Shown here: one piece after another, positions 15,923 to 63,381 of the stretch
Layout: each line of letters starts with the position of its first letter
Position numbering within the stretch: the first letter of the stretch is position 1
From: Pseudomonadota bacterium
Lineage (GTDB): Bacteria; Pseudomonadota; Alphaproteobacteria; Acetobacterales; Acetobacteraceae
Direction of reading: 5' to 3'
Length of the DNA: 64,000 bases
Assembly (NCBI GenBank): GCA_021809435.1
Contig: JAKBAD010000004.1
Span: 109,339 to 173,338, forward strand
Program-made: the position numbers and the translations under genes
The notes under the pieces: model-generated
The model's database searches: none
The model's input: the letters and a program-made list of their open reading frames with translations, nothing else
What the model was told of the DNA's origin: nothing

Positions 15923-16027
15923 GCCTAACTCCTCAGACGGTCATCGCCTGTCTCATTCTGGCCCGCGCCGGTTTCAATTTCGCTAACGCCCGGCGCCGAT
16001 TCCGCGTGCCGGGCGTGGCACTCTGAG

Positions 16028-16048
16028 GTCATCGCACGCCATCAGGCG
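16028..16048 (-). repeat. Right copy of the 21-bp inverted repeat
   Basis: Exact reverse complement of 14686-14706. It overlaps the last 7 bp of the aldo-keto reductase gene. Confidence 0.8.
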
Positions 16049-17028
16049 GCGGGCGCTTCCTCGGTGTCAATTTCGGCTTGTGTCGCCGCCGGGTAGCGCG
16101 GCCCCGCCACCTTGCGCGGCGCCACAATCTCTTCCAGCCGCGCCAGCTGCGCGGGCGAGAGCGCCACCTCCGCCATATCCTCGCGCAAATGCGCCACGCT
16201 GGTGGTGCCGGGAATGGCATGCACGCCCGGCCCCCTGGCCAGCACCCAGGCCAGCGCGGCCTGCGCCGGACTCACCCCGATCTCAGCCGCATAAGCCTCG
16301 AACTCGGCCAGAATCGTGAGATTTTGGGCGAAATTCTCGCCTTGAAAGCGCGGCATGCCGGCGCGTATATCGCCGGGCGCGAACCGCGTATCGCGCACCC
16401 CGCCGGCCAAAAACCCGCGCGCCACCGGCGAGAAGGCCACCAGCGCCACGCCCAGCTCGTCGCAAGCCGCCAGCAGCCCATATTCGGGGTTGCGGCTCCA
16501 GAGCGAATATTCATTCTGCACGGCGGCAATGGGGTGAACCGCATGCGCCGTGCGCAAGGTCGCGGCCGAAACCTCCGAGAGCCCGATGGCGCCGATCTTG
16601 CCCTGGCGCACCAGCTCACCCAGCGCGCCCACGCTCTCCTCAATCGCCACGGTGCGGTCCAAGCGGTGCAGATAATACAGATCGATATGATCAGTCCGCA
16701 GATTTTTGAGCGACTCCTCGCACGTGGCCTTCAGCGTTGCGGGCCGGCCATCAATCACGCGCTTGCCGTTCACCCCGGTCATGCCGCATTTGCTGGCCAG
16801 AAAAAACGCCCGCCGGTGGGGCGCCAGCACCTCGCCGAGCAGGGCTTCGTTCTTGCCAAACCCGTAGAGCGCGGCGGTGTCGAAATGCTCAACCCCCAGA
16901 TCGAGCGCGGCGCGCAGCACGGCCTCGGCCACCTCGCGCGCGGGCGGCACGCCATAGGCATGGCTGAGATTCATGCACCCCAGCCCAATCCGCCCCACTG
17001 CCCTGCCCGCCAAAATCCGCCGTTCCAT
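16042..17028 (-). CDS. Aldo/keto reductase
   Basis: 328 residues, TIM-barrel NADPH reductase. The catalytic tetrad is visible: Asp in HFDTAALYG, Tyr in the same stretch, Lys in LASKCGM and His in YYLHRLD. The family motif GRIGLGCMNLSHAYG suggests the AKR13/YakC-like group acting on aldehydes. MERRIL is chosen as start because the upstream in-frame extension is translated from an intergenic repeat; GGAG stands about 7 nt before it. It follows ligC on the same strand at 117 bp, separated by a hairpin element, so it may be only weakly part of the lig operon. Confidence 0.9.
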   Translation of the reverse strand: MERRILAGRAVGRIGLGCMNLSHAYGVPPAREVAEAVLRAALDLGVEHFDTAALYGFGKNEALLGEVLAPHRRAFFLASKCGMTGVNGKRVIDGRPATLKATCEESLKNLRTDHIDLYYLHRLDRTVAIEESVGALGELVRQGKIGAIGLSEVSAATLRTAHAVHPIAAVQNEYSLWSRNPEYGLLAACDELGVALVAFSPVARGFLAGGVRDTRFAPGDIRAGMPRFQGENFAQNLTILAEFEAYAAEIGVSPAQAALAWVLARGPGVHAIPGTTSVAHLREDMAEVALSPAQLARLEEIVAPRKVAGPRYPAATQAEIDTEEAPAA

Positions 17029-17040
17029 CGCCACGCTCCA

Positions 17041-17148
17041 AAAAACAAAAGTTTTTAAGGGGTGTGGGGGGAGTTTTACAAAAATCCCCCCACAAAAACT
17101 GGGCTCCTTTTTGAATAAAAAAGGCGCCAAACCACCAAAAAACTTTTA
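17041..17148. repeat. AAAAGTTTTT-type intergenic element (copy 1)
   Basis: A-rich/T-rich arms (CAAAAGTTTTTAAGGGG on the left, CCAAAAAACTTTTAA on the right) enclose inner GGGGGGA/TCCCCCC and CCTTTTT/AAAAAGG repeats. Similar elements occur at 27883-27977 and 40509-40559. Likely a transcription attenuator or terminator between ligC and the aldo-keto reductase. Confidence 0.65.
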
Positions 17149-18093
17149 ATAACCTTTCAACTGTTCCTCAAGCCGCCCCAGCACCTCATAACAAGGCAGC
17201 ACCTTGCCGACCGAGGCATTAGGCTCGCGCCCCTCGGCAATGGCCGTGAAGAATTCCCGGTCCTGCAATTCAATGCCATTCATCGACACATCGACCTTCG
17301 TGACATCGATCGGCTCTTCCTTGCCATTCACCAAATCATCATAGCGCGCGATATAGGTGCCATTGTCGCAAATATAGCGAAAGAACGTGCCCAGCGGCCC
17401 CTCATTGTTGAACGAGAGCGAGAGCGTGCAAATGGCGCCAGAGGCCGATTTCATCTGGATCGACATATCCATGGCAATGCCCAGCTGGGGGTGAATCGGC
17501 CCTTGCAGCGCATGTGCCGCCACCACTTTCTCGCCCGTCTGGTACTGGAACAAATCCACCGTATGCGCGGCATGGTGCCAGAGCAGATGGTCAGTCCACG
17601 AGCGCGCTTGGCCCAGCGCGTTGATGTTGGTGCGGCGGAAGAAATAGGTCTGCACGTTCATCTGCTGAATCTTCAGCTCGCCGGCGACAATTTTCTTGTG
17701 CACATAGTGGTGCGAGGGGTTGAAGCGGCGGGTGTGGCCAACCATCGCCACCAGCCCGGTCTCTTGCTGCGCGCGCATCACCGCCTGCGCATCGGCCCAG
17801 GAATCAGCGAGCGGAATTTCCACTTGCACATGCACCCCGGCCCGCAAACACTCAACCGACTGGGCGGCGTGCATCTGTGTCGGCGTCGCCAAAATCGCCG
17901 CCTGCACGCCGGGAATTTTCAGCGCCTCTGAAAGCTCGGTGGTGGCGTTGGCAATGCCGTATTTCTGCGCCACCGCCCGCGTGCCCTCCAGCTCGCGCCC
18001 GACCACGCCCACCACCTCAATGCCGCCAATCTCCCTGATGGCATCGAGATGCTTTTGCCCAAATGCCCCCGCGCCCGCGAGAATAACCTTCAT
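17146..18093 (-). CDS. ligC: 4-carboxy-2-hydroxymuconate-6-semialdehyde dehydrogenase
   Basis: 315 residues, Gfo/Idh/MocA fold. GAGAFGQKHLDAI (7-19) is the Rossmann loop; EIPLADSWADA and GHTRRFNPSHHYVHKKI are typical of LigC. It oxidises the hemiacetal of the protocatechuate ring-cleavage product to 2-pyrone-4,6-dicarboxylate with NADP. Order in this operon is ligI-ligA-ligB-ligC, with 3 bp between ligB and ligC, so all are co-transcribed. Length matches SYK-6 LigC (about 315). Confidence 0.93.
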   Translation of the reverse strand: MKVILAGAGAFGQKHLDAIREIGGIEVVGVVGRELEGTRAVAQKYGIANATTELSEALKIPGVQAAILATPTQMHAAQSVECLRAGVHVQVEIPLADSWADAQAVMRAQQETGLVAMVGHTRRFNPSHHYVHKKIVAGELKIQQMNVQTYFFRRTNINALGQARSWTDHLLWHHAAHTVDLFQYQTGEKVVAAHALQGPIHPQLGIAMDMSIQMKSASGAICTLSLSFNNEGPLGTFFRYICDNGTYIARYDDLVNGKEEPIDVTKVDVSMNGIELQDREFFTAIAEGREPNASVGKVLPCYEVLGRLEEQLKGY

Positions 18094-18096
18094 GTT

Positions 18097-19333
<1,237 letters not shown>

Positions 19334-19334
<1 letters not shown>

Positions 19335-20233
19335 CACAAAACCTCCTCAGGCCAGTAAAGCCGCATCGGATTATCAATCAAAAGCTTGCGGCGCAGCTCG
19401 TCGGTCACCGCGATCCTGCCGATGAAATCAACCAGCTTGCCGTCATCGGGGGCGTGGGTGGTCATGTTCGGGTGCGGCCAGTCGGTGCCGGTCAGCACCC
19501 GGTCGGGAAACGCCTCGACAATATGGCGCGCGAACGGCACCACATCGTCATAGTCAGGCGGCCCCTGCACCGAGAGCCGCTCCGGGCAGGTCACCTTGCT
19601 CCAAAAATTCCCATGCTCGCGCATCAGCTTCACAAAGAGCTGAAACTCAGGCCCGTCCACGGTCTTGCTCACATCCGGGCGGCCCATATGGTCCACCACC
19701 ACAATCCCCGGCAGCCCGATAAAGAAGTCATAAAGCTCGGGCAGCTCAGCGGCCTCGAAATAAATCACGATATGCCAGCCCAGCGGGGCGATGCGCGCGG
19801 CAATCTCGGCCAACTCGTCGCGCGGCAGCGCGTTCACCAGCCGCTTGACAAAATTGAAGCGCACACCACGCACCCCCGCTTCATGCAGGGCGCGCAGCTC
19901 GTCGTCGGTCACGCGCCGCGTCACGGTCGCCACCCCGCGCGCCAAGCCGTTCGCGTGCATCAGCGCATCCACCAGCGCCCGGTTATCGGCGCCATGGCAG
20001 GTCGCCTGCACAATCACATTGCGCGAAAACCCGAGATGATCGCGCAGCGCCCAGAGTTTTTCCTTGGGCGCGTCGCAGGGCGTATATTTGCGCTCGGGCG
20101 CATAAGGAAACACATCGCCCGGCCCAAACACATGGCAATGCGCATCCACCGCGCCGGGCGGCAGCACCAGGCGCGGCTTGGAGGGGGTGGGGTGAAACGG
20201 AATCCAGGTGGGATCCATGGTGAAGCTGGTCAT
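19334..20233 (-). CDS. ligI: 2-pyrone-4,6-dicarboxylate lactonase
   Basis: 299 residues, amidohydrolase fold. DAHCHVFGP (30-38) is the first metal/active-site motif; HMGRPD and LTGTDWPHPN carry the later His and Asp. LigI hydrolyses 2-pyrone-4,6-dicarboxylate to 4-oxalomesaconate (4-carboxy-2-hydroxymuconate) and works without a metal in characterised enzymes. It is the first gene of the ligI-A-B-C operon; the 140 bp upstream hold a palindromic operator candidate. Confidence 0.94.
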
Positions 20234-20340
20234 GGCGGGCGGTTTCTCACTCTCCTGTGCCGCCTCATGGTGCGGCTTGTTGTGCAGTCTGGCCGGTCAT
20301 ACCAGGGCTGGCGCGTGCCCGGCGGCTCAAAGCCGGGCGC

Positions 20341-20365
20341 GGGCTATAGGTTTTTGCTATAGCCC
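20341..20365. promoter_or_regulatory. Palindromic LysR-type operator candidate upstream of ligI
   Basis: GGGCTATAG - GTTTTTG - CTATAGCCC: a perfect 9-bp inverted repeat around seven bases, with LysR-like T-N11-A geometry. It lies about 108 bp before the ligI start. The same core is found upstream of ligK and of the second ligA. Confidence 0.7.
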
Positions 20366-20373
20366 GGCTGGTC

Positions 20374-21396
20374 TCAGCGGCCCTGGGCGGTCAAAATCGC
20401 GTCGAGGCGCGGAAACACCCGGCGCGCATTGCCCTCGAAAATCTTCGCCTTGTCATCATCCGAAATCGCCAGCGCATCGATATAGCGCTTGGTATCATCG
20501 AAATAAAATCCCGTCTCGGGATCAATCCCGCGCACCGCGCCAACCATTTCAGAACCAAATAAAATATTATCGGCATCAATCACCCGCGAGAGCAAATCAA
20601 TGCCCGGCTGATGATAGACGCAGGTATCGAAATAAACATTCTTCATCACATGCGCGCGCAGGTTCGGGCGCTTGAGCATATCGGCCAGCCCCCTATAGCG
20701 CCCCCAATGATACGGCACCGCGCCGCCGCCATGGGGAATGATCAGCCGCAGCTCAGGAAAATCCCTGAACAAATCACCTTGAATCAGCTGCATGAACACC
20801 GTCGTGTCGGCGGCGATGTAATAAGCCCCCGTGGCGTGGAAGCAGGCATTGCACGAGCCCGAGACATGAATCATCGCCGGCACGTCGAGCTCCACCATCG
20901 CCTCGAAAAACGGATACCAATAGCGGTCATGGATCGGCGGCGCCGAGAAGTTCCCGCCCGAGGGGTCAGGGTTGAGGTTGCAGCCGATAAAGCCAAGTTC
21001 ATTGACACAGCGCTTAAGTTCCGCGATCGAGGCGTCCAGCGGCGCGCCCGGGAATTGCGGCAGCTGGCACACGCCGACAAAATTGCGCGGATACATATCC
21101 ACCACCCGGCTGATCAGGTCGTTATTGGCCCGCGACCACTCGATCGACACACGCTCATTGCCCTCATGCGGCGCCATGGCCGAGGCGCGGGGTGAGAAAA
21201 TCGTCATATCCGCGCCGCGCTCACGCAGCAGCTTCAACTGGTTCGCCTCAATACTATCCCTGATCTGGTCATCCGAAATCGCCAGCGGCGCGGGCGGCGC
21301 GCCATGGCCCTGGGCGGCCCAGTCCAGCAGCTTGGCGCGGTAGGTCTGGTGCGGGTCGGGGGCGGTGGTATAATGGCCGTGGCAATCAATAATCAT
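20374..21396 (-). CDS. ligJ: 4-oxalomesaconate hydratase
   Basis: 340 residues, amidohydrolase superfamily (ACMS decarboxylase-like). IIDCHGHY carries the two metal histidines (6 and 8); IHVSGSCNACFHATGAYY and HGGGAVPYHWGRYRGLADM are characteristic of LigJ. It adds water to 4-oxalomesaconate giving 4-carboxy-4-hydroxy-2-oxoadipate. Its ATG shares one base with the stop of the upstream DUF1932 gene (ATGA-like overlap at 21396), so it is co-translated. Confidence 0.93.
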   Translation of the reverse strand: MIIDCHGHYTTAPDPHQTYRAKLLDWAAQGHGAPPAPLAISDDQIRDSIEANQLKLLRERGADMTIFSPRASAMAPHEGNERVSIEWSRANNDLISRVVDMYPRNFVGVCQLPQFPGAPLDASIAELKRCVNELGFIGCNLNPDPSGGNFSAPPIHDRYWYPFFEAMVELDVPAMIHVSGSCNACFHATGAYYIAADTTVFMQLIQGDLFRDFPELRLIIPHGGGAVPYHWGRYRGLADMLKRPNLRAHVMKNVYFDTCVYHQPGIDLLSRVIDADNILFGSEMVGAVRGIDPETGFYFDDTKRYIDALAISDDDKAKIFEGNARRVFPRLDAILTAQGR

Positions 21397-22259
21397 CAGG
21401 TTTTTCCTTGTGTCTTTGCCGTCATGGCGTCGAGCATGGCGCCCAGATCAGGTTCGTCGAGCGCCTGTTTCAACCCGGCCGAGAGGTCCTGGCGGGCGGC
21501 GATCGCCACGCTCATCAAGGGCGCCAGCCCGGCCTCGGCCACGGTCTCCGCGGCCTCTCTCATTTCCTCGGCGCGGCGCGCGCCGTGTTGCACCCCCCGC
21601 CCGATCATGTAGTACGCCAGTTTTTCCCAATCCTGGCCGGGAAAAAAATCGCTGAGCGAGGCCAGAACCTCACCCTCCACGCCATAATGGCGCGCGGTCA
21701 GCATGGCTTCCGTCAGCAGCGCCTCAATCCCCTTGATCATCACCGAGCGGCAGAGCTTGGTGGCCGAAGCCAGCCCGATCTGGGGGGCATAAAACCTGGC
21801 CCCGCTAAACCCCACCTTCCGGGCCACGGCCTCAAAACCAGCGGCATGCGGCCCGCCCAGCAACATCGGCGAGGCCAAACGCTTATGGCCGATGGGCGAC
21901 ATGATCACCCCCTCCACATAGCGCCCCTTAGCATCCTCAATCACCTTGGCCGCACGGCGCTTCTGCCCCGGCGAGGCCGAATTCACATCGAGAAAATAAG
22001 CCCCCGCGCTCAGCCCACCGGCCACCGCGCGCGCCGCCGCCTCATCCTGCGCGGCGGTCACCGCGCACACCACAATCTCAGCGCCCGCCACCGCCTCCTG
22101 CGCGCTGGCCGGGGCGGTCAGCCCAAACCCCGCCAGCGCTTTCGAGGGCCCCGCGCCAGGGTCTGAAAATTTCACGTCCCAGGCGGTGAAGCCGGTGCCC
22201 CAATCAGTGGCGAAACTCTGCCCGACCTCGCCAAACCCCAACAGGCAGATCATGGCCAC
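21396..22259 (-). CDS. NAD(P)-dependent oxidoreductase with DUF1932 C-terminal domain
   Basis: 287 residues. The N-terminal Rossmann motif ICLLGFGEVGQSFA and YFLDVNSASPGQK belong to the 6-phosphogluconate/3-hydroxyisobutyrate dehydrogenase class; residues about 190-270 (KLCRSVMIKGIEALLTEAM, then DWEKLAYYMIGRGVQHGARR) are the DUF1932 domain. It lies inside the ligK-ligU-X-ligJ operon, overlapping ligU by 10 bp and ligJ by 1 bp, so it probably acts on a pathway intermediate or side product. The canonical protocatechuate 4,5 pathway has no assigned step for it. Confidence 0.85.
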   Translation of the reverse strand: MAMICLLGFGEVGQSFATDWGTGFTAWDVKFSDPGAGPSKALAGFGLTAPASAQEAVAGAEIVVCAVTAAQDEAAARAVAGGLSAGAYFLDVNSASPGQKRRAAKVIEDAKGRYVEGVIMSPIGHKRLASPMLLGGPHAAGFEAVARKVGFSGARFYAPQIGLASATKLCRSVMIKGIEALLTEAMLTARHYGVEGEVLASLSDFFPGQDWEKLAYYMIGRGVQHGARRAEEMREAAETVAEAGLAPLMSVAIAARQDLSAGLKQALDEPDLGAMLDAMTAKTQGKT

Positions 22260-23335
22260 ACATCGCCCTTGATATAAATCTCGCCCTTCATCAGCTTGCG
22301 CGCGGTGCGAATCAGCGCCGCGCGCTTCACCTCGATGTCGGCGCCCGCGCCCGCAATCTCCATGCTCACGGCAAAAAACCCGCTCGGGTGCTCCACCGCC
22401 AGCTCCAGCGTGCCGCTGGTTTGGCCAATCTCGGCCAGTTCCGCCCCCACACTGCCCGCGATCACACAGCCCGTGGCCACCGAAACCGCACCCAGCACGC
22501 CAATCGCCTCATGCACGCGGTGGGGAATGAACGTGCGGGTCGAAACCGCGCCGCCCTCGAAGGGTTGTGAGAGCAAGGTCATCTTGGGCACCGTCTTCCT
22601 GGCCACATTGCCCAGATTCATCAAAGGCCCCACCGCCAGCCTGATCTCCTCCACCCGGCGCTTGAGCGCGGCATTGGCCTCCAGCTCGGCGGGGGTTTCG
22701 CGCCCGCTCAGGCCAAAATCCGCCGCCCTCATCAGCACCACCGGCATGCCGTTATCCACACAGGTCACGCGCACGCCGTTCACCTCGTCCACCACATGGC
22801 CGGTGGGCAGCAGCGCCCCGCAGGCCGAGCCGGCAATGTCGAGAAAATCAATGGCGATGGCGGCCCCCGTGCCGGGCACGCCATCGATACGCGCATCGCC
22901 CTCATAGGCCACCACGCCGCCCGGCGTTGGCACATGGGCCACCGCCACGCTGGCGGTGTTGACCATATGAATCCGCACGCTGGTCACCCCCTCGCGCGCA
23001 TCCACCAGCCCGGCCTCGATGGCGAACGGCCCGACCCCGGCCAGAATATTCCCGCAATTCTGCGCGTCCGAAACCTCGGCCTTGTCGACCGCCACCTGCA
23101 AAAACAAATAATCCACATCGGCGTCGGGGCGGGTCGAGGGCGAAATCACCGCCACTTTCGAGGTCAGCGGGTGCGCGCCGCCCAGCCCGTCAATCTGGCG
23201 CATATCGGGCGAGCCCATGGCGGCCAGCAGCACGGCATCGCGCAAGCCCCGCTCGGCGGGTAAATCGCGCTGGTGAACATACAGGCCCTTCGAGGAGCCG
23301 CCCCGCACCAGGGTGGCGGGAATGGCGCGCAGCAT
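22250..23335 (-). CDS. ligU: 4-oxalomesaconate tautomerase (PrpF family)
   Basis: 361 residues, PrpF/diaminopimelate-epimerase-like fold. The start RAIPATLVRGGSSKGLY is the PrpF signature, and AQNCGNILAGVGPFAIEAG holds the conserved Cys. In protocatechuate pathways (GalD, LigU) this enzyme interconverts the keto/enol or double-bond isomers of 4-oxalomesaconate. It starts 1 bp after ligK ends. GalD activity cannot be excluded given the gallate-like second dioxygenase nearby. Confidence 0.88.
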   Translation of the reverse strand: MLRAIPATLVRGGSSKGLYVHQRDLPAERGLRDAVLLAAMGSPDMRQIDGLGGAHPLTSKVAVISPSTRPDADVDYLFLQVAVDKAEVSDAQNCGNILAGVGPFAIEAGLVDAREGVTSVRIHMVNTASVAVAHVPTPGGVVAYEGDARIDGVPGTGAAIAIDFLDIAGSACGALLPTGHVVDEVNGVRVTCVDNGMPVVLMRAADFGLSGRETPAELEANAALKRRVEEIRLAVGPLMNLGNVARKTVPKMTLLSQPFEGGAVSTRTFIPHRVHEAIGVLGAVSVATGCVIAGSVGAELAEIGQTSGTLELAVEHPSGFFAVSMEIAGAGADIEVKRAALIRTARKLMKGEIYIKGDVWP

Positions 23336-23336
23336 A

Positions 23337-24029
23337 TCACGCCTCTCCCAGCCGTTTCACATATTTCAGCCCCTTCTCGGCCAGCCGCTCGCGCATCTTG
23401 TACAAATCCAGCCCCAGCACCCCGGCGGCCAGCTGCTCGCGCTTGGCGCCCTCATTGGCCTCGCGCGCCTGCGCCTTGGCCAGCACGGCGGCGGCGCGGG
23501 CCGAGGGCACCACCACCACCCCGTCATCATCGGCCACAATCACATCGCCCGGCGTCACATGCGCGCCCGCGCACACCACCGGCACGTTCACATTGGCAAT
23601 GGTCTCCTTCACCGTGCCCTGGGCATAAATCGCCTTCGACCACACGGGAAATTCCATGTCCGTCAGCGTCGCCACATCGCGCACGCCGGCATTGATAATC
23701 AAGCCCCGCACCCCGCGCGCTTTCAGCGAGGTGGCGAGCAGATCGCCAAAATACCCATCCTCGCACGGGCTGGTCGGGGTCACGACCAGAATATCGCCCG
23801 GCCGACACTGTTCCACCGCCACATGGATCATCCAATTATCCCCCGGCGCCACCTCGCAGGTCACGGCGGTGCCCGAAATCGCGGCCGGGCGGTAAATGGG
23901 GCGCATATAAGAGGCCATCAGCCCCGTGCGCCCCAGCGCCTCATGCACCGTGGCGACGCCAAATTTCCCCAGCGCCTCGGCAACCCCCGCCTCCGCGCGG
24001 TCGATCTCGGTAACAACGACAATGGCCAT
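23337..24029 (-). CDS. ligK: 4-carboxy-4-hydroxy-2-oxoadipate aldolase (RraA-like)
   Basis: 230 residues, class II pyruvate aldolase of the RraA-like family. [15 protein letters not shown] (92-106) and INAGVRDV with Arg117-Asp118 are the pyruvate and metal-binding residues. It splits 4-carboxy-4-hydroxy-2-oxoadipate to pyruvate and oxaloacetate, the last step of the pathway. MAIVVV is chosen as start; the upstream in-frame extension is antisense to the LysR gene. It heads the operon ligK-ligU-DUF1932-ligJ. Confidence 0.93.
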
Positions 24030-24147
24030 GTGTTCACTCCAAGCCGGGGGCGGCTGGCAGCCCCAAATCCCCCGCGCCATTTTGGTTAAGTGCCGCCACG
24101 TTACCCCTTCCCCTGGCCGCCGCGCCAATACGAAGAGGGTCGCGCCC

Positions 24148-24167
24148 CATAAGTTTTTGCTGTAGCC
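24148..24167. promoter_or_regulatory. Shared lig operator candidate, ligK / LysR-1 divergent promoter
   Basis: CCATAAGTTTTTGCTGTAGCC keeps the GTTTTTG core and seven of the eight bases CTATAGCC of the ligI site. It is about 119 bp upstream of ligK and ends 7 bp before the LysR-1 ATG, so it may also be that gene's promoter. Confidence 0.65.
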
Positions 24168-24174
24168 TGCCCCC

Positions 24175-25407
24175 ATGCCCGCCTCCGCGCCGTTCAATTT
24201 CCGCCATCTCGCCGCCGCCCTCGCGGTGGCGCGGGGGGGCGGCATCTCGCGCGCGGCCCAGGCCATGCATCTTAGCCAGCCGGCGCTCACCCAGGGGCTG
24301 GCGCGGCTCGAAGCCACGCTCGGCGCCCGGCTGTTCGTGCGCTCGGGCCAAGGCACCGGCCTCACGCCCGAGGGTGAGCTGTTCCTCCCCCGCATCGCCC
24401 GCGCGTTCGAGGGGCTGCGCGCCGCCGAGCGCGCCCTGCCCGGCGCCCCCGCCTTGCACCGCCACGCCAGCGCCACCCAGTGGCGGGCGCTGGCCGCCAT
24501 GGTCGAGGCCCGCTCCACCGCCCAGGCCGCGCGCGCCCTGGGCATGAGCCAGCAAAGCCTGCACCGCGCGCTCATGGGGCTTGAGGGCTTAAGCGCCACG
24601 CCCTTGTTCACCCGCACCCGCCAAGGGCTCGAGCCCTTGCCCGAGGCCCGCCTTCTCGCCCGCGCGGCGGGGCTGGCCTTTGCCGAGCTGCGCCAAGGCG
24701 CCTGGGGGTTGCGCGAGCTGCGCGGCCTCATGGATGGCACGATCACCATCGGCGCCCTGCCGCTGGCGCGCTCCGCCCTCATTCCCCAGGCCGCCACCGC
24801 CCTGCTCGCCCGCTACCCCGAACTCCGCCTCCAGATCATCGATGGCCCCTATGCCGAGCTGCTGCACGGCCTGCGCCACGGGCACATAGATTTCATCATC
24901 GGCGCGCTCCGCACCCCCGCCCCCGGCCCCGACATCGCCCAGGAAGAGTTTTTCACCGAGCCACTCTCGATCATCGTGCGCCCTGGCCATCCGGCGCTCA
25001 CCGCCCCGCCCACCGCCCAGTCCCTGGCGCGGCTGGGCTGGGTGTTGCCCCGTCAGGGCACCCCGGCGCGGGCCATTTTCACGGCCTTTTTCACCGCCGC
25101 CCAGGTCGCCCCGCCCACCCAGGTCATCGAGTGCAGCTCCCTGGTGGCGGCGCGCGGGTTGCTGCTGGCCAGCGACCGCGCGGCCATCTTCTCCCGCTCC
25201 CAGGTGCGTTTCGAGCTGGCCACCGGCCAGCTTGCCGCCCTGGCCGCGCCCCTGCCGGGTTCGGCGCGCCCCATCGGCCTCAGCCTCCGGCGAGACTTCA
25301 CCCCCACCCGCGCGCAGCAGGCCTGCCTGGCGGCGCTAAGGCTCGCCGCCGCCGATCTCGCCGGCGACAGCCCGGGCATGCTGGAGAAACGCCCCCACCA
25401 GCCCTGA
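24175..25407 (+). CDS. LysR-type regulator with two tandem helix-turn-helix domains (lig regulator 1)
   Basis: 410 residues, about 100 more than ordinary LysR proteins. Residues about 8-75 form a first HTH ([20 protein letters not shown] then [16 protein letters not shown]); residues about 97-160 form a second ([20 protein letters not shown] then [17 protein letters not shown]). From about 180 on is the periplasmic-binding-like effector domain ([19 protein letters not shown]). It lies divergent to ligK and convergent with a second regulator of the same design. No Shine-Dalgarno is visible. Likely ligand is protocatechuate, gallate or a pathway intermediate; this is inference. Confidence 0.85.
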
Positions 25408-26529
25408 GGGGCGCAAACCGGGCCGGGTGGCAATGCCCACCGGCTGCGCCGACCCGGCAATGGGCGCGCCCACCGCCACCAGCTCGCCGCGCGCCAGCTC
25501 CGCCGCGATCTGGCGTTTGGAGAGCACGGCCGCGCGCGGGGTGGCGCGCAGCAGGGCGCGGATGGTGATGAGCGAATTACAGGCAATGGCATCAACCGGC
25601 ACGCGCGCCCCCTGGCTTTCCAAATACGCCTCAAACGCCCCGCGTGAGGGCGTGCCCCGTGGCGGCAAAATCCAGTCCAGCGCGTCGAGCGTGGCGCGGC
25701 TCACCTCGCGCGTGCCGGCCAGCGCGTGGTGCGGCCCGATGACGATGGTCAGCGGGTCCGCAAACAGCCATTCCTGCGCGATCTCGGGGGTCTCCGCGCG
25801 CAGCGGCCCCAAAATCAAATCAATCCGCCCCGCCCTCAGCGCCGTTCGCTGCTCGTCATAAGGTCCGTCCATGATGTCGATTTCCGCCCGCGGATAGGCG
25901 CCCAGCGTGCGCGCCAGCGCCTCGGGCAGCCAGGTCGAGCGCGCCAGCGGCAGCGCCCCCACATAAAGCCGTCCGGCCTTCAGCCCGCGCGCTTCCCGCA
26001 GCTCATCCACCCCTAAGCGCAGCTCGGCCTGCATGCGCCCGGCATGCTCGCCCAGCCGCCGCGCCGCCCAGGTTGGGCGCAAGCCGCGCCCGGCGCGCTC
26101 CCACAGCGTCACCCCGGCCAGTGCCTCCAGCTCCCGCGCGGCCCGATAAAGCGTTGGTTGCGCCAGCCCCAGCGTCCGCGCGGCCGCGCTCACGCTCGGC
26201 GCCTCCTGCAACGCCAACAGCGCGCGCAGCTGCGCCAGATCCACCATCCCCGCGAAACGTTTCCTGGTGTGCAGCGCGGTCTCGGCCTCGCGCAACTCGG
26301 CCAAGGCGGTTTTGATGCGCCGGCAAAACAGCGTTCCGGCCTCGGTCGGGCGCATGCCGCCGGCGTGGCGCTCGAACAATGTCTCGCCCAGCGCGGCCTC
26401 CAGCCCGCCCAGCGCGCCCAGCACGGCGGGCGCCGATAGATGCACGGTCTCGGCCGCGCGCAGCGCGCTGCCATGCTCGAAAATCGCCAGCGCGACGCGC
26501 AGCCAGCGGGGCTTCAGGGGTGGCTCCAT
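25336..26529 (-). CDS. LysR-type regulator with two tandem helix-turn-helix domains (lig regulator 2)
   Basis: 397 residues. First HTH at about 8-70 (ALRAAETVHLSAPAVLGALG, then GETLFERHAGGMRPTEAG); second at about 97-165 (SVSAAARTLGLAQPTLYRAA, then VTLWERAGRGLRPTWAARR); effector domain from about 185 ([19 protein letters not shown]). It is a paralogue of regulator 1 with the same layout. MEPPLK is chosen as start because the operator-like site ends 7 bp upstream, as for regulator 1. It is divergent to the second ligAB pair, and its 3-prime end overlaps that of regulator 1 by 72 bp. Confidence 0.85.
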   Translation of the reverse strand: MEPPLKPRWLRVALAIFEHGSALRAAETVHLSAPAVLGALGGLEAALGETLFERHAGGMRPTEAGTLFCRRIKTALAELREAETALHTRKRFAGMVDLAQLRALLALQEAPSVSAAARTLGLAQPTLYRAARELEALAGVTLWERAGRGLRPTWAARRLGEHAGRMQAELRLGVDELREARGLKAGRLYVGALPLARSTWLPEALARTLGAYPRAEIDIMDGPYDEQRTALRAGRIDLILGPLRAETPEIAQEWLFADPLTIVIGPHHALAGTREVSRATLDALDWILPPRGTPSRGAFEAYLESQGARVPVDAIACNSLITIRALLRATPRAAVLSKRQIAAELARGELVAVGAPIAGSAQPVGIATRPGLRPSGLVGAFLQHARAVAGEIGGGEP

Positions 26530-26536
26530 ACCCCAT

Positions 26537-26551
26537 CTATAGCAAAAACTT
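26537..26551. promoter_or_regulatory. Shared lig operator candidate, LysR-2 / ligA2 divergent promoter
   Basis: CTATAGCAAAAACTT, which reads AAGTTTTTGCTATAG on the minus strand, is the same core as at 20341 and 24148. It is about 104 bp before the second ligA start and 7 bp before the LysR-2 ATG. Confidence 0.65.
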
Positions 26552-26654
26552 TCACCCGCGCACCGGCTTTGCGTTACCATCGCGGCCCGGAAGTTTCTTA
26601 GCATCCCCCCATCAGCCGGGCGCCAAGCATCCCGGCTTCACCCCAGGAGCGGAT

Positions 26655-27035
26655 ATGTCAGCCAAACCCATTCCCGGCACCCCGGTCTTCACCGGCGCCT
26701 ATGCCATGCGGGGCTATGCCCTCAACAAAATGTGCTATTCCCTCAACGCCGCCGCCAACCGCGCCGCCTTCCTGGCCGATGAGGACGGTTATTGCGCCCA
26801 ATACGGCCTCACCCCGCCCCAGCGCGCCGCCATCGCCGCGCGCAATGTCGCCCAGCTCATCGAGGCCGGCGGCAATGTCTATTACCTGGCCAAGTTCGCC
26901 GGCATTTTCGGCCTCAACGTCCAAGATCTCGGCGCCCAGCAGACCGGCGTCTCCGTCGACGAGTTCAAGGCCAAGCTGAAAGCCCACGCCATCCACAACG
27001 ACGCCGTCAAAGCCGGGAGGCTCGCCAATGTCTAA
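26655..27035 (+). CDS. Second LigA-type dioxygenase alpha subunit
   Basis: 126 residues. YALNKMCYSLNAAANRAAFLAD and AQLIEAGGNVYYLAKFAGIFG match the LigA core, but the protein is clearly diverged from the first LigA. AGGAGC precedes the ATG at 26655. It overlaps the catalytic-subunit gene by 8 bp. Together they form a separate extradiol dioxygenase, perhaps for a related catechol such as gallate, 3-O-methylgallate or protocatechuate under other conditions. Confidence 0.92.
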   Translation: MSAKPIPGTPVFTGAYAMRGYALNKMCYSLNAAANRAAFLADEDGYCAQYGLTPPQRAAIAARNVAQLIEAGGNVYYLAKFAGIFGLNVQDLGAQQTGVSVDEFKAKLKAHAIHNDAVKAGRLANV

Positions 27036-27864
27036 CATCATCGGCTCGGTTGCCACCTCGCACATCCCCGCCATCGGCAACGCCATCCATAAGGGCCTGC
27101 AGAAGGATGAATATTGGCAGCCCTTCTTCGACGGCTTCCCCCCCGCGCGCGCGTGGCTGCACGCCGCCAAGCCCGATGTGGCGGTGGTGGTCTATAACGA
27201 CCACGGGCTGAATTTCTTCCTCGACAAAATGCCCACCTTCGCCGTCGGCGCGGCGCCGGTCTACACCTCCGAGGATGAAGGCTGGGGCATTCCCACCGTG
27301 CCGCCCGTGCGGGGCGCGCCCGAGCTGTCCTGGGCCATCATCGAGCAGGCCGTGGCCGATGAGTTCGATGTCACCACCTGCCAGGAAATGCTCGTCGATC
27401 ATGCCTGCACCGTGCCCCTCCAGCTCATGTGGCCCGAAGGGTGGGAGGGCATCCGCATCGTGCCCATCGCCATCAACACGGTGCAGCACCCGCTGCCCTC
27501 GGCCAAGCGTTGTTTGGCGTTTGGCCAGTCCATCGGCCGGGCCATCCGCGCCTTCGCGCAAACCCTGAACGTGGTGGTGATCTCCACCGGCGGCCTGTCG
27601 CACCAGCTCGAGGGCGAGCGCGCGGGGTTCCTGAACCCCGAATTCGATGATCTCTGCCTCAACGCCCTCATCAACAAGCCCGAGCTGCTCACCCGCTATT
27701 CCGCGCATGAGATCGTCGAGCTGGCCGGCAGCCAGGGCGCCGAGATCCTCAACTGGATCGTCGGGCGCGGCATTCTGGGCGGCGCCGCGCGCGAGGTGGT
27801 GCGCAACTACCACATCCCCATCTCCAACACCGCCGCCGCGCTTCAGGTGCTCGAACCCGCCTAA
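27028..27864 (+). CDS. Second LigB-type extradiol dioxygenase catalytic subunit
   Basis: 278 residues. His12 (TSHIPAIG), His59 (VYNDHGL), His192 (GGLSHQL) and Glu239 occupy the iron and catalytic positions. The overall pattern is protocatechuate 4,5-dioxygenase (PmdB/LigB), with many substitutions compared with the first copy. The linked alpha subunit separates it from single-chain gallate dioxygenases (GalA, DesB). It is driven from the promoter shared with regulator 2. Confidence 0.92.
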   Translation: MSNIIGSVATSHIPAIGNAIHKGLQKDEYWQPFFDGFPPARAWLHAAKPDVAVVVYNDHGLNFFLDKMPTFAVGAAPVYTSEDEGWGIPTVPPVRGAPELSWAIIEQAVADEFDVTTCQEMLVDHACTVPLQLMWPEGWEGIRIVPIAINTVQHPLPSAKRCLAFGQSIGRAIRAFAQTLNVVVISTGGLSHQLEGERAGFLNPEFDDLCLNALINKPELLTRYSAHEIVELAGSQGAEILNWIVGRGILGGAAREVVRNYHIPISNTAAALQVLEPA

Positions 27865-27882
27865 ACGCACATACCCCAGGCG

Positions 27883-27977
27883 CAAAAGTTTTTTGGGGCC
27901 GCTTTTTTCAAAAAAGGGGCGGAGTCTTGGGGAGCTTTTTGAAAAAAGCTCCCCAAACCCCCAAAAAACTTTTTTTT
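27883..27977. repeat. AAAAGTTTTT-type intergenic element (copy 2)
   Basis: Outer arms CAAAAGTTTTTTGGGG and CCCCCAAAAAACTTTT are inverted copies. Inside are GCTTTTTTCAAAAAAGG and CTTGGGGAGCTTTTT/GAAAAAAGCTCCCCA hairpins. It lies between the convergent second ligB and msrB and would terminate both. Confidence 0.8.
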
Positions 27978-28431
27978 ATTTGCTGGGCGTGAACACCAGC
28001 GCCAGGCCGTTGATGCAATAGCGCAGCCCCGTCGGCGGCGGGCCATCGGGGAAGACATGCCCCAAATGCCCCAGGCAGCGCCGGCAATGCACCTCTGTCC
28101 GCGTCATCCCCAAACTGTCATCGGGCCGGGTCGCCACCGCATCGGGCAGCGGCGCATAAAAGCTCGGCCAGCCCGTGCCGCTGTCATATTTGGTGGCCGA
28201 TGAAAACAACCCCAGCCCGCACCCCGCGCAGCCAAACACGCCCTGGCGATGCTCCCCCAGCAGCGGCGAGGTGAACGGATATTCCGTGCCCTGCTCACGC
28301 AAAATCTGAAATTGCGCGGGCGTCAGCCGGGCGCGCCATTGCGCCTCGGTCAGCCCTTGCCAATCCACCGGCGCCGCCGCCCAGGCCGGGCCGCCCAGCA
28401 GCGCCAGCAACAGGCTCCGCCGGGCGGTCAT
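27976..28431 (-). CDS. msrB: Peptide-methionine (R)-S-oxide reductase, exported
   Basis: 151 residues. The N-terminus TARRSLLLALLGGPAWAAAP is a twin-arginine-like signal peptide. Two CxxC zinc pairs (GCAGC and HCRRC), GTGWPSF and the catalytic Cys in RYCIN are all present. It reduces methionine-R-sulfoxide in periplasmic proteins or free in that space. It overlaps the msrA gene by 4 bp, so both repair stereoisomers are made together. Confidence 0.94.
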   Translation of the reverse strand: MTARRSLLLALLGGPAWAAAPVDWQGLTEAQWRARLTPAQFQILREQGTEYPFTSPLLGEHRQGVFGCAGCGLGLFSSATKYDSGTGWPSFYAPLPDAVATRPDDSLGMTRTEVHCRRCLGHLGHVFPDGPPPTGLRYCINGLALVFTPSK

Positions 28432-29087
28432 GGTGTCACCCGCACCGGGTCGGCGCGGTAGAGCGCCGGAAAATCCACCCTCAGCGCCGCCAGCTTGGGC
28501 GCGTCGTTGATCACGATGTAGGGGTAATCCGGGTGGCGTACCATGAAATCCTGGTGGTAGCCCTCGGCCTGGTAAAACGGCCCGGCGGGGTCGATGCGCG
28601 TGACAATCGGCGCGTTAAACACATGCGCCTGGGTCAGTTGGGCCACATAAGCCGCCGCCACCTGGCGCTGGGCCGGGTTTTCCACCCAAATCTCGCCCCG
28701 ATATTGCGGCCCCTGATCCGGCCCCTGAAAATCCAGCTCCGTCGGGTCGGTCGCGTCTGAGAAATACACCCGCAAAATCGTGCCGTAAGAGATCACGCGC
28801 GGGTCGAACAATATTTCCACGCTCTCGGCATGGCCCGTGGTGCCGGTCGAAACCTGCTCATACGTCGCCGTATCCGCCGCGCCGCCAGTATAGCCGGCAT
28901 AAACGCGCCGCACGCCCTTCACATGCTCAAACACCCCCTGCATCCCCCAAAAACACCCGCCCGAGAGCAAGGCGGTTGCGGTGGCGGCGTTATCGGGCGG
29001 GTCAAATGCCGGGGCGGGCAGGGGCGTGGCATAAGCGCGGCCCCCCAGCGCGGCGCCCAGCATCAAGGCCAAGAGAGAACGAATCAT
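28428..29087 (-). CDS. msrA: Peptide-methionine (S)-S-oxide reductase, exported
   Basis: 219 residues with a signal peptide (MIRSLLALMLGAALGGRAYA). The active-site motif GGCFWGMQGVFEHVKGV and YTGG are standard MsrA; EGYHQDFM is the C-terminal substrate region. A GGAGG box (29093-29097) supports the start at 29087. It pairs with msrB to repair oxidised periplasmic proteins. Confidence 0.95.
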   Translation of the reverse strand: MIRSLLALMLGAALGGRAYATPLPAPAFDPPDNAATATALLSGGCFWGMQGVFEHVKGVRRVYAGYTGGAADTATYEQVSTGTTGHAESVEILFDPRVISYGTILRVYFSDATDPTELDFQGPDQGPQYRGEIWVENPAQRQVAAAYVAQLTQAHVFNAPIVTRIDPAGPFYQAEGYHQDFMVRHPDYPYIVINDAPKLAALRVDFPALYRADPVRVTP

Positions 29088-40508: not shown

Positions 40509-40559
40509 TAAAAGTTTTTGCGGGGTTTGGGGGGCTTTTTTCAAAAAGCCCCCCAAATT
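40509..40559. repeat. AAAAGTTTTT-type intergenic element (copy 3)
   Basis: AAAAGTTTTTGCGGGG followed by a GGGGGGCTTTTT/AAAAAGCCCCCC hairpin. It lies between the convergent paralogue B and the SCO-like gene, like the other two copies at gene ends. Confidence 0.75.
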
Positions 40560-63204: not shown

Positions 63205-63381
63205 TCAGGACAGATGCTCCACCACAAGAGAAATGGCAGCAACGATATGGCCCACGCACAGGAGAATTTCGAGCGGGCGATCAACGCGCTCGATCCAATG
63301 GCGGGGGGAAGGCTTTACCACAGGCGAAGGTCCAGCTTTGAGACGGGCTGAAGCTTTGCGGCGTTGACGGCGGTTGCTCAT
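63205..63381 (-). CDS. Small 58-residue protein with a hydrophobic C-terminal segment
   Basis: MSNRRQRRKASARLKAGPSP then HWIERVDRPLEILLCVGHIV and AAISLVVEHLS. AGGAG lies about 7 nt before the ATG (minus strand; 63389-63393). The first 20 residues are very basic and the last 20 could form one membrane helix. It is divergent from a ribbon-helix-helix gene. Family unknown. Confidence 0.6.
   Translation of the reverse strand: MSNRRQRRKASARLKAGPSPVVKPSPRHWIERVDRPLEILLCVGHIVAAISLVVEHLS

Follow-up and report, generated by a model that had tools for sequence, protein, structure and literature searches.

The window analysed here, a 64,000-nt stretch of contig JAKBAD010000004.1 from a member of the Acetobacteraceae that probably belongs to the acid-dwelling Acidocella group, carries genes predicted to act in the breakdown of lignin-derived aromatic acids; they resemble a protocatechuate 4,5-cleavage (lig) cluster, the lig names being assigned by Pfam family and gene order. 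Two genes for LysR regulators, LysR1 and LysR2, lie within the cluster, and three short, related sites precede ligI (site 1), ligK (site 2) and the second of two ligA genes (site 3). In this paper we compare these sites with one another, with the rest of the genome and with related loci. The comparison points, with a probability of roughly 0.87, to three copies of one conserved LigR-type operator, predicted to be bound by one or both of the neighbouring LysR proteins, each of which has a double helix-turn-helix (HTH).

Three related sites in the lig cluster

The sequences of the sites were checked by direct reading of the letters. Site 1 is a perfect inverted repeat, GGGCTATAG (20341-20349)-GTTTTTG-CTATAGCCC (20357-20365). 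The 18-nt segment common to the three sites is called box A (Table 1). At site 2 it ends 9 bp ahead of the LysR1 start and has counterparts in three genomes of the same genus (G020, G008 and G015), and at site 3 it lies just ahead of the LysR2 start. The first-pass annotation had described a GTTTTTG core flanked by CTATAG-like arms at all three places; the core is found at each of them, and at site 3 it is accompanied by one arm only, the other being degenerate. The coordinates proposed there for the sites, the palindrome at site 1 and the distances to the genes were all borne out, as were, with its own site limits, the 7-bp gaps to the LysR starts (24175 and 26529) at sites 2 and 3. The gaps between site and catabolic gene are 108 bp for ligI (20233), 119 bp for ligK (24029) and 104 bp for the second ligA (26655). 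Pairwise, the 18-mers differ at three positions (sites 1 and 2), three positions (sites 1 and 3) and four positions (sites 2 and 3). The T-N11-A dyad, near-invariant in the ligK-side sites of related loci (T in 51 of 52, A in all 52), is present at site 1; a C replaces the T at site 2 and a T replaces the A at site 3.

A 17-base pattern drawn from the sites, CTAYAGCAAAAACYTWY, has three exact matches in the genome (2,650,705 bases, rated 100% complete), and all three are sites 1 to 3. Because the pattern was drawn from these sites their exactness is by construction, and the information in the scan is the absence of matches elsewhere. No place has one mismatch, one has two and 22 have three; these looser matches are background, since 51 places matched the reversed pattern with three mismatches or fewer. 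The motif is not common genome-wide, no exact match lying outside the three lig sites. A looser family pattern matched sites 1 and 2 exactly and placed site 3 among twelve two-mismatch matches; its total of 14, against 15 for the reversed control, means that it carries no signal short of an exact match. Shuffles of the window contain GCAAAAACYT 0.13 times on average and the window itself four times; one of these four occurrences (40512-40521) is beyond the lig region. The 12-mer given in the first-pass annotation, CTATAGTTTTTG, is a poor handle for site search: it was found at one place in the window at up to two mismatches, with a shuffle mean of 1.0.

Conservation and likeness to LigR operators

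Named genomes were scanned with a LigK alignment and the best 80 loci were kept; they belong to Sphingomonadales, other Alphaproteobacteria and Gammaproteobacteria, with a few unplaced records. Because a first matrix had been trained on overlapping loci, the matrix was retrained on named loci only, using 50 of 56 upstream regions, none of them named as the window's genus. With this held-out matrix, sites 1 and 2 have the two best scores in the window (Table 1), and the maximum of 20 random windows was 13.2.

The box also accompanies the double-HTH LysR genes. A family model identified 70 full-length members in the first loci, 13 further matches there being partial, split or other LysR proteins, and 86 different ones after more genomes and the window were included. 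Directly upstream of 63 of the 70 genes the box is present, in the same orientation in 63 of 63, and in the wider set it precedes 74 of the 86. Where ligK has an adjacent divergent LysR of this family, adjacency being a frame with its 5' end no more than 500 bp away and full length not required, the box stands 72-114 bp upstream in 49 of 49 cases and in one orientation; dinucleotide shuffles of the same stretches contained it in 11 of 490. Where ligK has no such neighbour, the box was found in 5 of 30, and three of these five loci (L093, L097 and L122) have a full-length double-HTH LysR in the locus. This test covered 79 of the 80 loci, L124 having been dropped for its 29 bases of upstream sequence. 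Like the count of 63 in 70 and the search for secondary sites, it used the first matrix, the one with overlapping training loci. Site 2 has the same arrangement, upstream of ligK and adjoining a divergent LigR-family gene. The motif is thus conserved in orthologous clusters, at a similar distance and in a single orientation.

Within the genus, 38 genomes were scanned with a 16-base core pattern. Each of the five exact matches (two in G000, one each in G008, G020 and G014) falls in a double-HTH LysR locus or a lig locus. Of 14 one-mismatch matches, one precedes a further double-HTH LysR (contig 27 of G020); the reversed core gave seven matches at up to one mismatch. G020, a close relative of G000, has all three sites, site 3 being identical and site 1 retaining the core with a single arm. 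In G008 and in G015 each of the two LysR starts has its own box, including the place that corresponds to site 3. Site 1, between ligJ and ligI, was found in G000 and G020; in G008 no site 1 was found, ligJ and ligI abutting with no gap for one, and the contig of G015 stops short of ligI. An ATAAR-type box also stands upstream of three double-HTH LysR genes from this genus that are more distant (L048, L049 and L051), with held-out scores of 11.6, 16.5 and 15.7. L048 and L049 gave no lig genes over their 20 kb, so the double-HTH LysR family may extend beyond the lig pathway.

The motif TT-N-GC-N6-TTAT is conserved in the DNase footprints of LigR from Novosphingobium aromaticivorans and Sphingobium lignivorans SYK-6, as described in PMC12710314, and the core of box A corresponds to the LigR box published there, read as its reverse complement. 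Toward the catabolic gene, the box most often reads TTAGCAAAAACTTAT, which contains the motif; an exact copy is present in 23 of the 56 upstream regions, and sites 1, 2 and 3 match, by eye, 6, 6 and 5 of its eight fixed letters. In PMC12710314 LigR is described as an activator, with binding some 50-85 bp upstream of the transcription start; PMC6888825 gives protocatechuate and gallate as effectors of SYK-6 LigR. The window's box resembles that of the sphingomonad operators of PMC12710314, and its place before ligK beside a divergent regulator and the pathway are the same. The second LigR operator reported in that paper, which precedes an oxidoreductase gene with ligJ behind it (the oxidoreductase-ligJABC operon), is paralleled by secondary sites of the related loci, in which boxes precede a DUF1932 gene and then ligJ (15 cases listed). 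The window differs in having three sites, one of them internal (ligJ/ligI), in having two regulator genes with converging ends, and in the split of its genes into ligK-U-DUF1932-J, ligI-A-B-C and a second ligAB.

Compared with classical LysR operators, for which PMC5002191 gives the consensus CTATA-n9-TATAG (OxyR, CynR, GcvA), site 1 is literally CTATA-N9-TATAG and the first box would likewise lie near -65. The window's box differs from them in that its spacer is conserved like the arms and its orientation is fixed.

Box B, predicted promoters and the case for an operator

An alignment of 52 ligK-side sites (52 of 54 were used for the flank profile) has a second conserved block, box B, at about +25 to +39 from box A. 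When a box B matrix was placed at fixed spacing on 16 secondary sites outside the training set, the expected offset ranked first among 75 offsets in 13 sites, second in one and third in two; 12 of the 16 are non-redundant, and they are taken from 20 plus-strand hits in L053-L132, with L056, L092, L104 and L113 left out. In 15 sites of relatives box B had rank 1 in seven and ranks 2 to 16 in the other eight. At site 3 the block reads [AG]CCGGCTTY[AG]CGYTACC in G000, G020, G008 and G015.

In the classical geometry, as summarised in PMC5002191, a first repeat near -65 is followed 22 bp on by a second near -43, beside the -35 element. Box B lies approximately 23-24 bp from box A, as against those 22 bp, and unlike the classical second site it has no clear T-N11-A repeat. 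Together boxes A and B span 38 bp, compared with a published LigR footprint of approximately 30 bp (PMC12710314). Because it is placed where the classical second site and the -35 lie, we read box B as what would be the usual LysR activation site merged with the -35, and do not claim it as new; a novel second operator half was considered and dropped, the place being that of the classical second LysR site and the -35. It is also conceivable, though somewhat short of even odds, that box B is a promoter element only, either the -35 of the target or part of a divergent lysR promoter, with no protein contact. In the secondary sites a TTG at about +36 to +39, separated by 17 bp from +60, fits the -35 hexamer of a target promoter; among the window's sites, a TTG stands in box B at site 2 only. 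The conservation of box B nevertheless reaches upstream of the -35 (T31, T32). The lysR-promoter version of this alternative is disfavoured because the secondary sites keep box B and the 15 of them that were checked, all of the 16 but L107, are away from any divergent LysR start. At +60 to +67 of the three window sites stand GTATGACC, GGTAACGT and CTTAGCAT, which are possible -10 elements.

The main local rival at site 1 is an RNA hairpin between ligJ and ligI, acting in mRNA processing or stability and resembling the box by chance. The segment 20310-20375 folds as two adjacent strong hairpins (z -3.76), a fold that 0 of 200 shuffles equalled. A hairpin would be expected to keep its stem while its loop drifts, but in the single two-genome comparison available the opposite is seen: both changes in the 25-bp palindrome of G020 fall in the stem, one of them breaking a pair, and none falls in the CAAAAAC loop. 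Site 1 is, moreover, the window's best match to a matrix built from operators of other genera, there is no U run after it, and the terminator scan has no minus-strand entries. Since the changes in G020 hit the stem and not the loop, we favour an operator at site 1 and regard the hairpin as improbable. Two further candidates for this place were rejected: an intrinsic terminator, as the scan gave only plus-strand terminator-like stems, at 20255-20276, and a known RNA, as no Rfam match was found in 16000-29000.

Several results weigh against a single operator at all three sites, or against parts of the proposed layout. Eight of the 20 random windows have a maximum at least as high as the 9.5 of site 3, and position 63379 of the window scores higher (10.6) with the same matrix. 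The box is absent at 12 of the 86 double-HTH LysR genes. Two ligK genes that do have a box (L056, score 16.4, and L117, score 19.1) have no relative of LysR1 detectable by tblastn in 14.7 kb; the regulator for these boxes may be located elsewhere. Box B is weak in the window at the expected offset, the scores in Table 1 comparing with random quantiles of -1.8 (95%) and 2.0 (99%), and the best offsets are shifted by -5, +1 and +1. Scanning 20200-20450 for consensus promoters gave no hit, and the transcription starts and -10 elements given here are predictions. As the held-out score of site 3 is weak, its case is made by the shared core, its position and the boxes of relatives at the same place. 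The earlier reading, in which the LysR proteins would bind the sites and control three operons, is nonetheless supported, because the motif is rare elsewhere and conserved and because the LysR neighbours are kin of the ligK-adjacent proteins of sphingomonads.

Behind site 1 the first gene is ligI, followed by ligA, ligB and ligC, and behind site 2 the order is ligK, ligU, the DUF1932 gene and ligJ. The cluster has two diverged ligAB pairs, each with its own predicted operator; possibly one pair serves protocatechuate and the other another acid such as gallate.

Table 1. Sites, predicted promoter elements and genes of the lig region (window positions; Pfam-based gene names).
Feature	Position	Strand	Remarks
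Box A, site 1, toward ligI: CTATAGCAAAAACCTATA	20345..20362	-	Held-out matrix 20.9, top score of the window
Box A, site 2, toward ligK: CTACAGCAAAAACTTATG	24148..24165	-	Held-out matrix 18.5, second in the window
Box A, site 3, toward second ligA: CTATAGCAAAAACTTTCA	26537..26554	+	Held-out matrix 9.5, not significant alone
Box B, site 1: CCCGGCTTTGAGCCG	20323..20337	-	Weak match; score -1.6, rank 3 of 75, best offset -5
Box B, site 2: ACCCTCTTCGTATTG	24126..24140	-	Runs into predicted -35 TTGGCG; score 3.2, rank 2 of 75, best offset +1 (9.0)
Box B, site 3: ACCGGCTTTGCGTTA	26562..26576	+	Score 0.3, rank 3 of 75, best offset +1 (4.9)
Predicted -10 TATGAC, internal promoter before ligI	20296..20301	-	G000 and G020 share GTATGA at this offset
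Predicted -10 TAACGT, ligK promoter	24098..24103	-	Prediction; 19 bp from the -35
LysR1, LigR-type regulator	24175..25407	+	410 aa; two winged-HTH modules, one LysR substrate domain
LysR2, second LigR-type regulator	25336..26529	-	Same domain order, 397 aa
ligC-like dehydrogenase	17146..18093	-	Pfam family
First ligAB pair, behind ligI	18097..19337	-
ligI, 2-pyrone-4,6-dicarboxylate lactonase (Amidohydro_2)	19334..20233	-	Name from family and neighbourhood
ligJ, 4-oxalomesaconate hydratase (Amidohydro_2)	20374..21396	-	Name from family and neighbourhood
DUF1932 dehydrogenase-like gene	21396..22259	-	Pfam family; inside the ligK-U-J operon
ligU-like PrpF-family tautomerase	22250..23335	-	Pfam family
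ligK, RraA-like	23337..24029	-	Name from family and neighbourhood
Second ligAB pair, behind site 3	26655..27864	+

Double-HTH regulators and the proposed circuit

LysR proteins are usually built with a single N-terminal winged HTH. LysR1 and LysR2 depart from this build and represent a LysR variant with a double HTH: in both, HTH_1 (in two stretches) and one LysR_substrate domain score above the Pfam cut-offs, and a structure model of LysR1 (mean pLDDT 91) has two winged-HTH modules, a linker helix after each, and one substrate domain. Local models of each HTH module match 86 of 86 family proteins, a figure that is partly due to selection because the proteins were chosen by full-length match to the double-HTH model. 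When the 7,999 candidates sharing most words with LysR1 were scored, 87 homologues had E <=1e-30; 79 are at least 366 aa long, and the remaining eight, of 282-337 aa, were left out. The best 50 of 1,741 structure matches to the LysR1 model are LysR-family chains of 203-326 residues, all of them shorter. No description of double-HTH LysR proteins was found in open-access full text, subscription journals being outside the scope of that search. The proteins beside ligK in sphingomonads match the double-HTH model over its length and share the lig neighbourhood, and from these counterparts we infer that the published LigR proteins are themselves double-HTH.

The best NCBIfam match of both regulators is PcaQ, the protocatechuate-pathway LysR of rhizobia (LysR1 residues 107-393, LysR2 residues 97-389). 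The PcaQ site given in PMC5002191 is ATA-n10-TAT, with its centre 65.5 bp before the target gene, and resembles the window's box in outline. The scores against the equivalog TIGR02424 (248.4 for LysR1 and 195.7 for LysR2), however, are below its curated cut-off of 303.8, and the PcaQ model has 300 positions and one HTH, whereas LysR1 and LysR2 carry a further HTH module, probably N-terminal since the PcaQ match starts only at about residue 100.

LysR1 and LysR2 are convergent and their 3' ends overlap by 72 bp (25336-25407); the corresponding matches overlap also in G020 and G008, and do not in G015. In a tree of 65 of the 86 proteins the two fall in separate, well-supported clades, each with relatives outside the genus, in other orders, and a recent duplication of LysR1 into LysR2 is accordingly unsupported.

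The same separation of the clades is consistent with a division of labour in which LysR1 acts at site 2 (ligK) only and LysR2 at site 3 and perhaps site 1, the shared core reflecting common descent of two regulators and not one regulon. Boxes on the LysR1 side start with CTACAG in G000, G020, G008 and G015 and those on the LysR2 side with CTATA or TTATA; sites 1 and 3 also have CCGGCTT of box B in common. The close agreement of the three 18-mers, however, argues against separate specificities. Covariation was of no use in assigning the first and second HTH to boxes A and B: over 74 protein-operator pairs, in a partial Mantel test with the substrate domain and the other HTH as controls, partial r was at most 0.13, the second HTH being slightly ahead for both boxes and the first for the spacer. 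With correlations of this size binding specificity is not readable from sequence. We consider a division of labour a tentative alternative, with perhaps one chance in three, and prefer the shared operator bound by one or both regulators.

In the working that we propose, box A would lie approximately 65 bp before the predicted transcription starts of ligK (near 24091), the second ligAB pair (near 26611) and the internal promoter before ligI (near 20288), and box B would cover the usual place of LysR activating contacts and run into the -35 region. The regulator would sit on box A and, on binding an aromatic of the pathway (protocatechuate or gallate), would extend its contact to box B and bring in RNA polymerase. 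Since box A at sites 2 and 3 also covers the region where the regulator's own gene starts, this binding would keep expression of the regulator low. Binding by one or both LysR proteins, aromatic-triggered activation of the three operons and autorepression through box A are what we infer from this layout. An elaboration that seems unlikely as it stands is that the LigR family are LysR proteins whose DNA-reading part has been doubled, so that a single dimer, having four winged HTHs, would span boxes A and B and do the work for which a tetramer is normally needed, and that the Acidocella-type cluster joins two such regulators in one three-operator circuit.

The operator is of a known kind; what is added is a matrix for the whole family, a LysR geometry close to the ordinary one, a third site that is internal, and a double-HTH regulator family. 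If this reading is right, the prediction carries a footprinted operator of a lignin pathway beyond sphingomonads, into an Acidocella-type genus and into Rhodospirillaceae, Hyphomicrobiales and Gammaproteobacteria. A matrix would then be available for predicting LigR-type regulons. Full-length members of the family would carry a second winged HTH, and the role of this module could be tested on sites that are already known.

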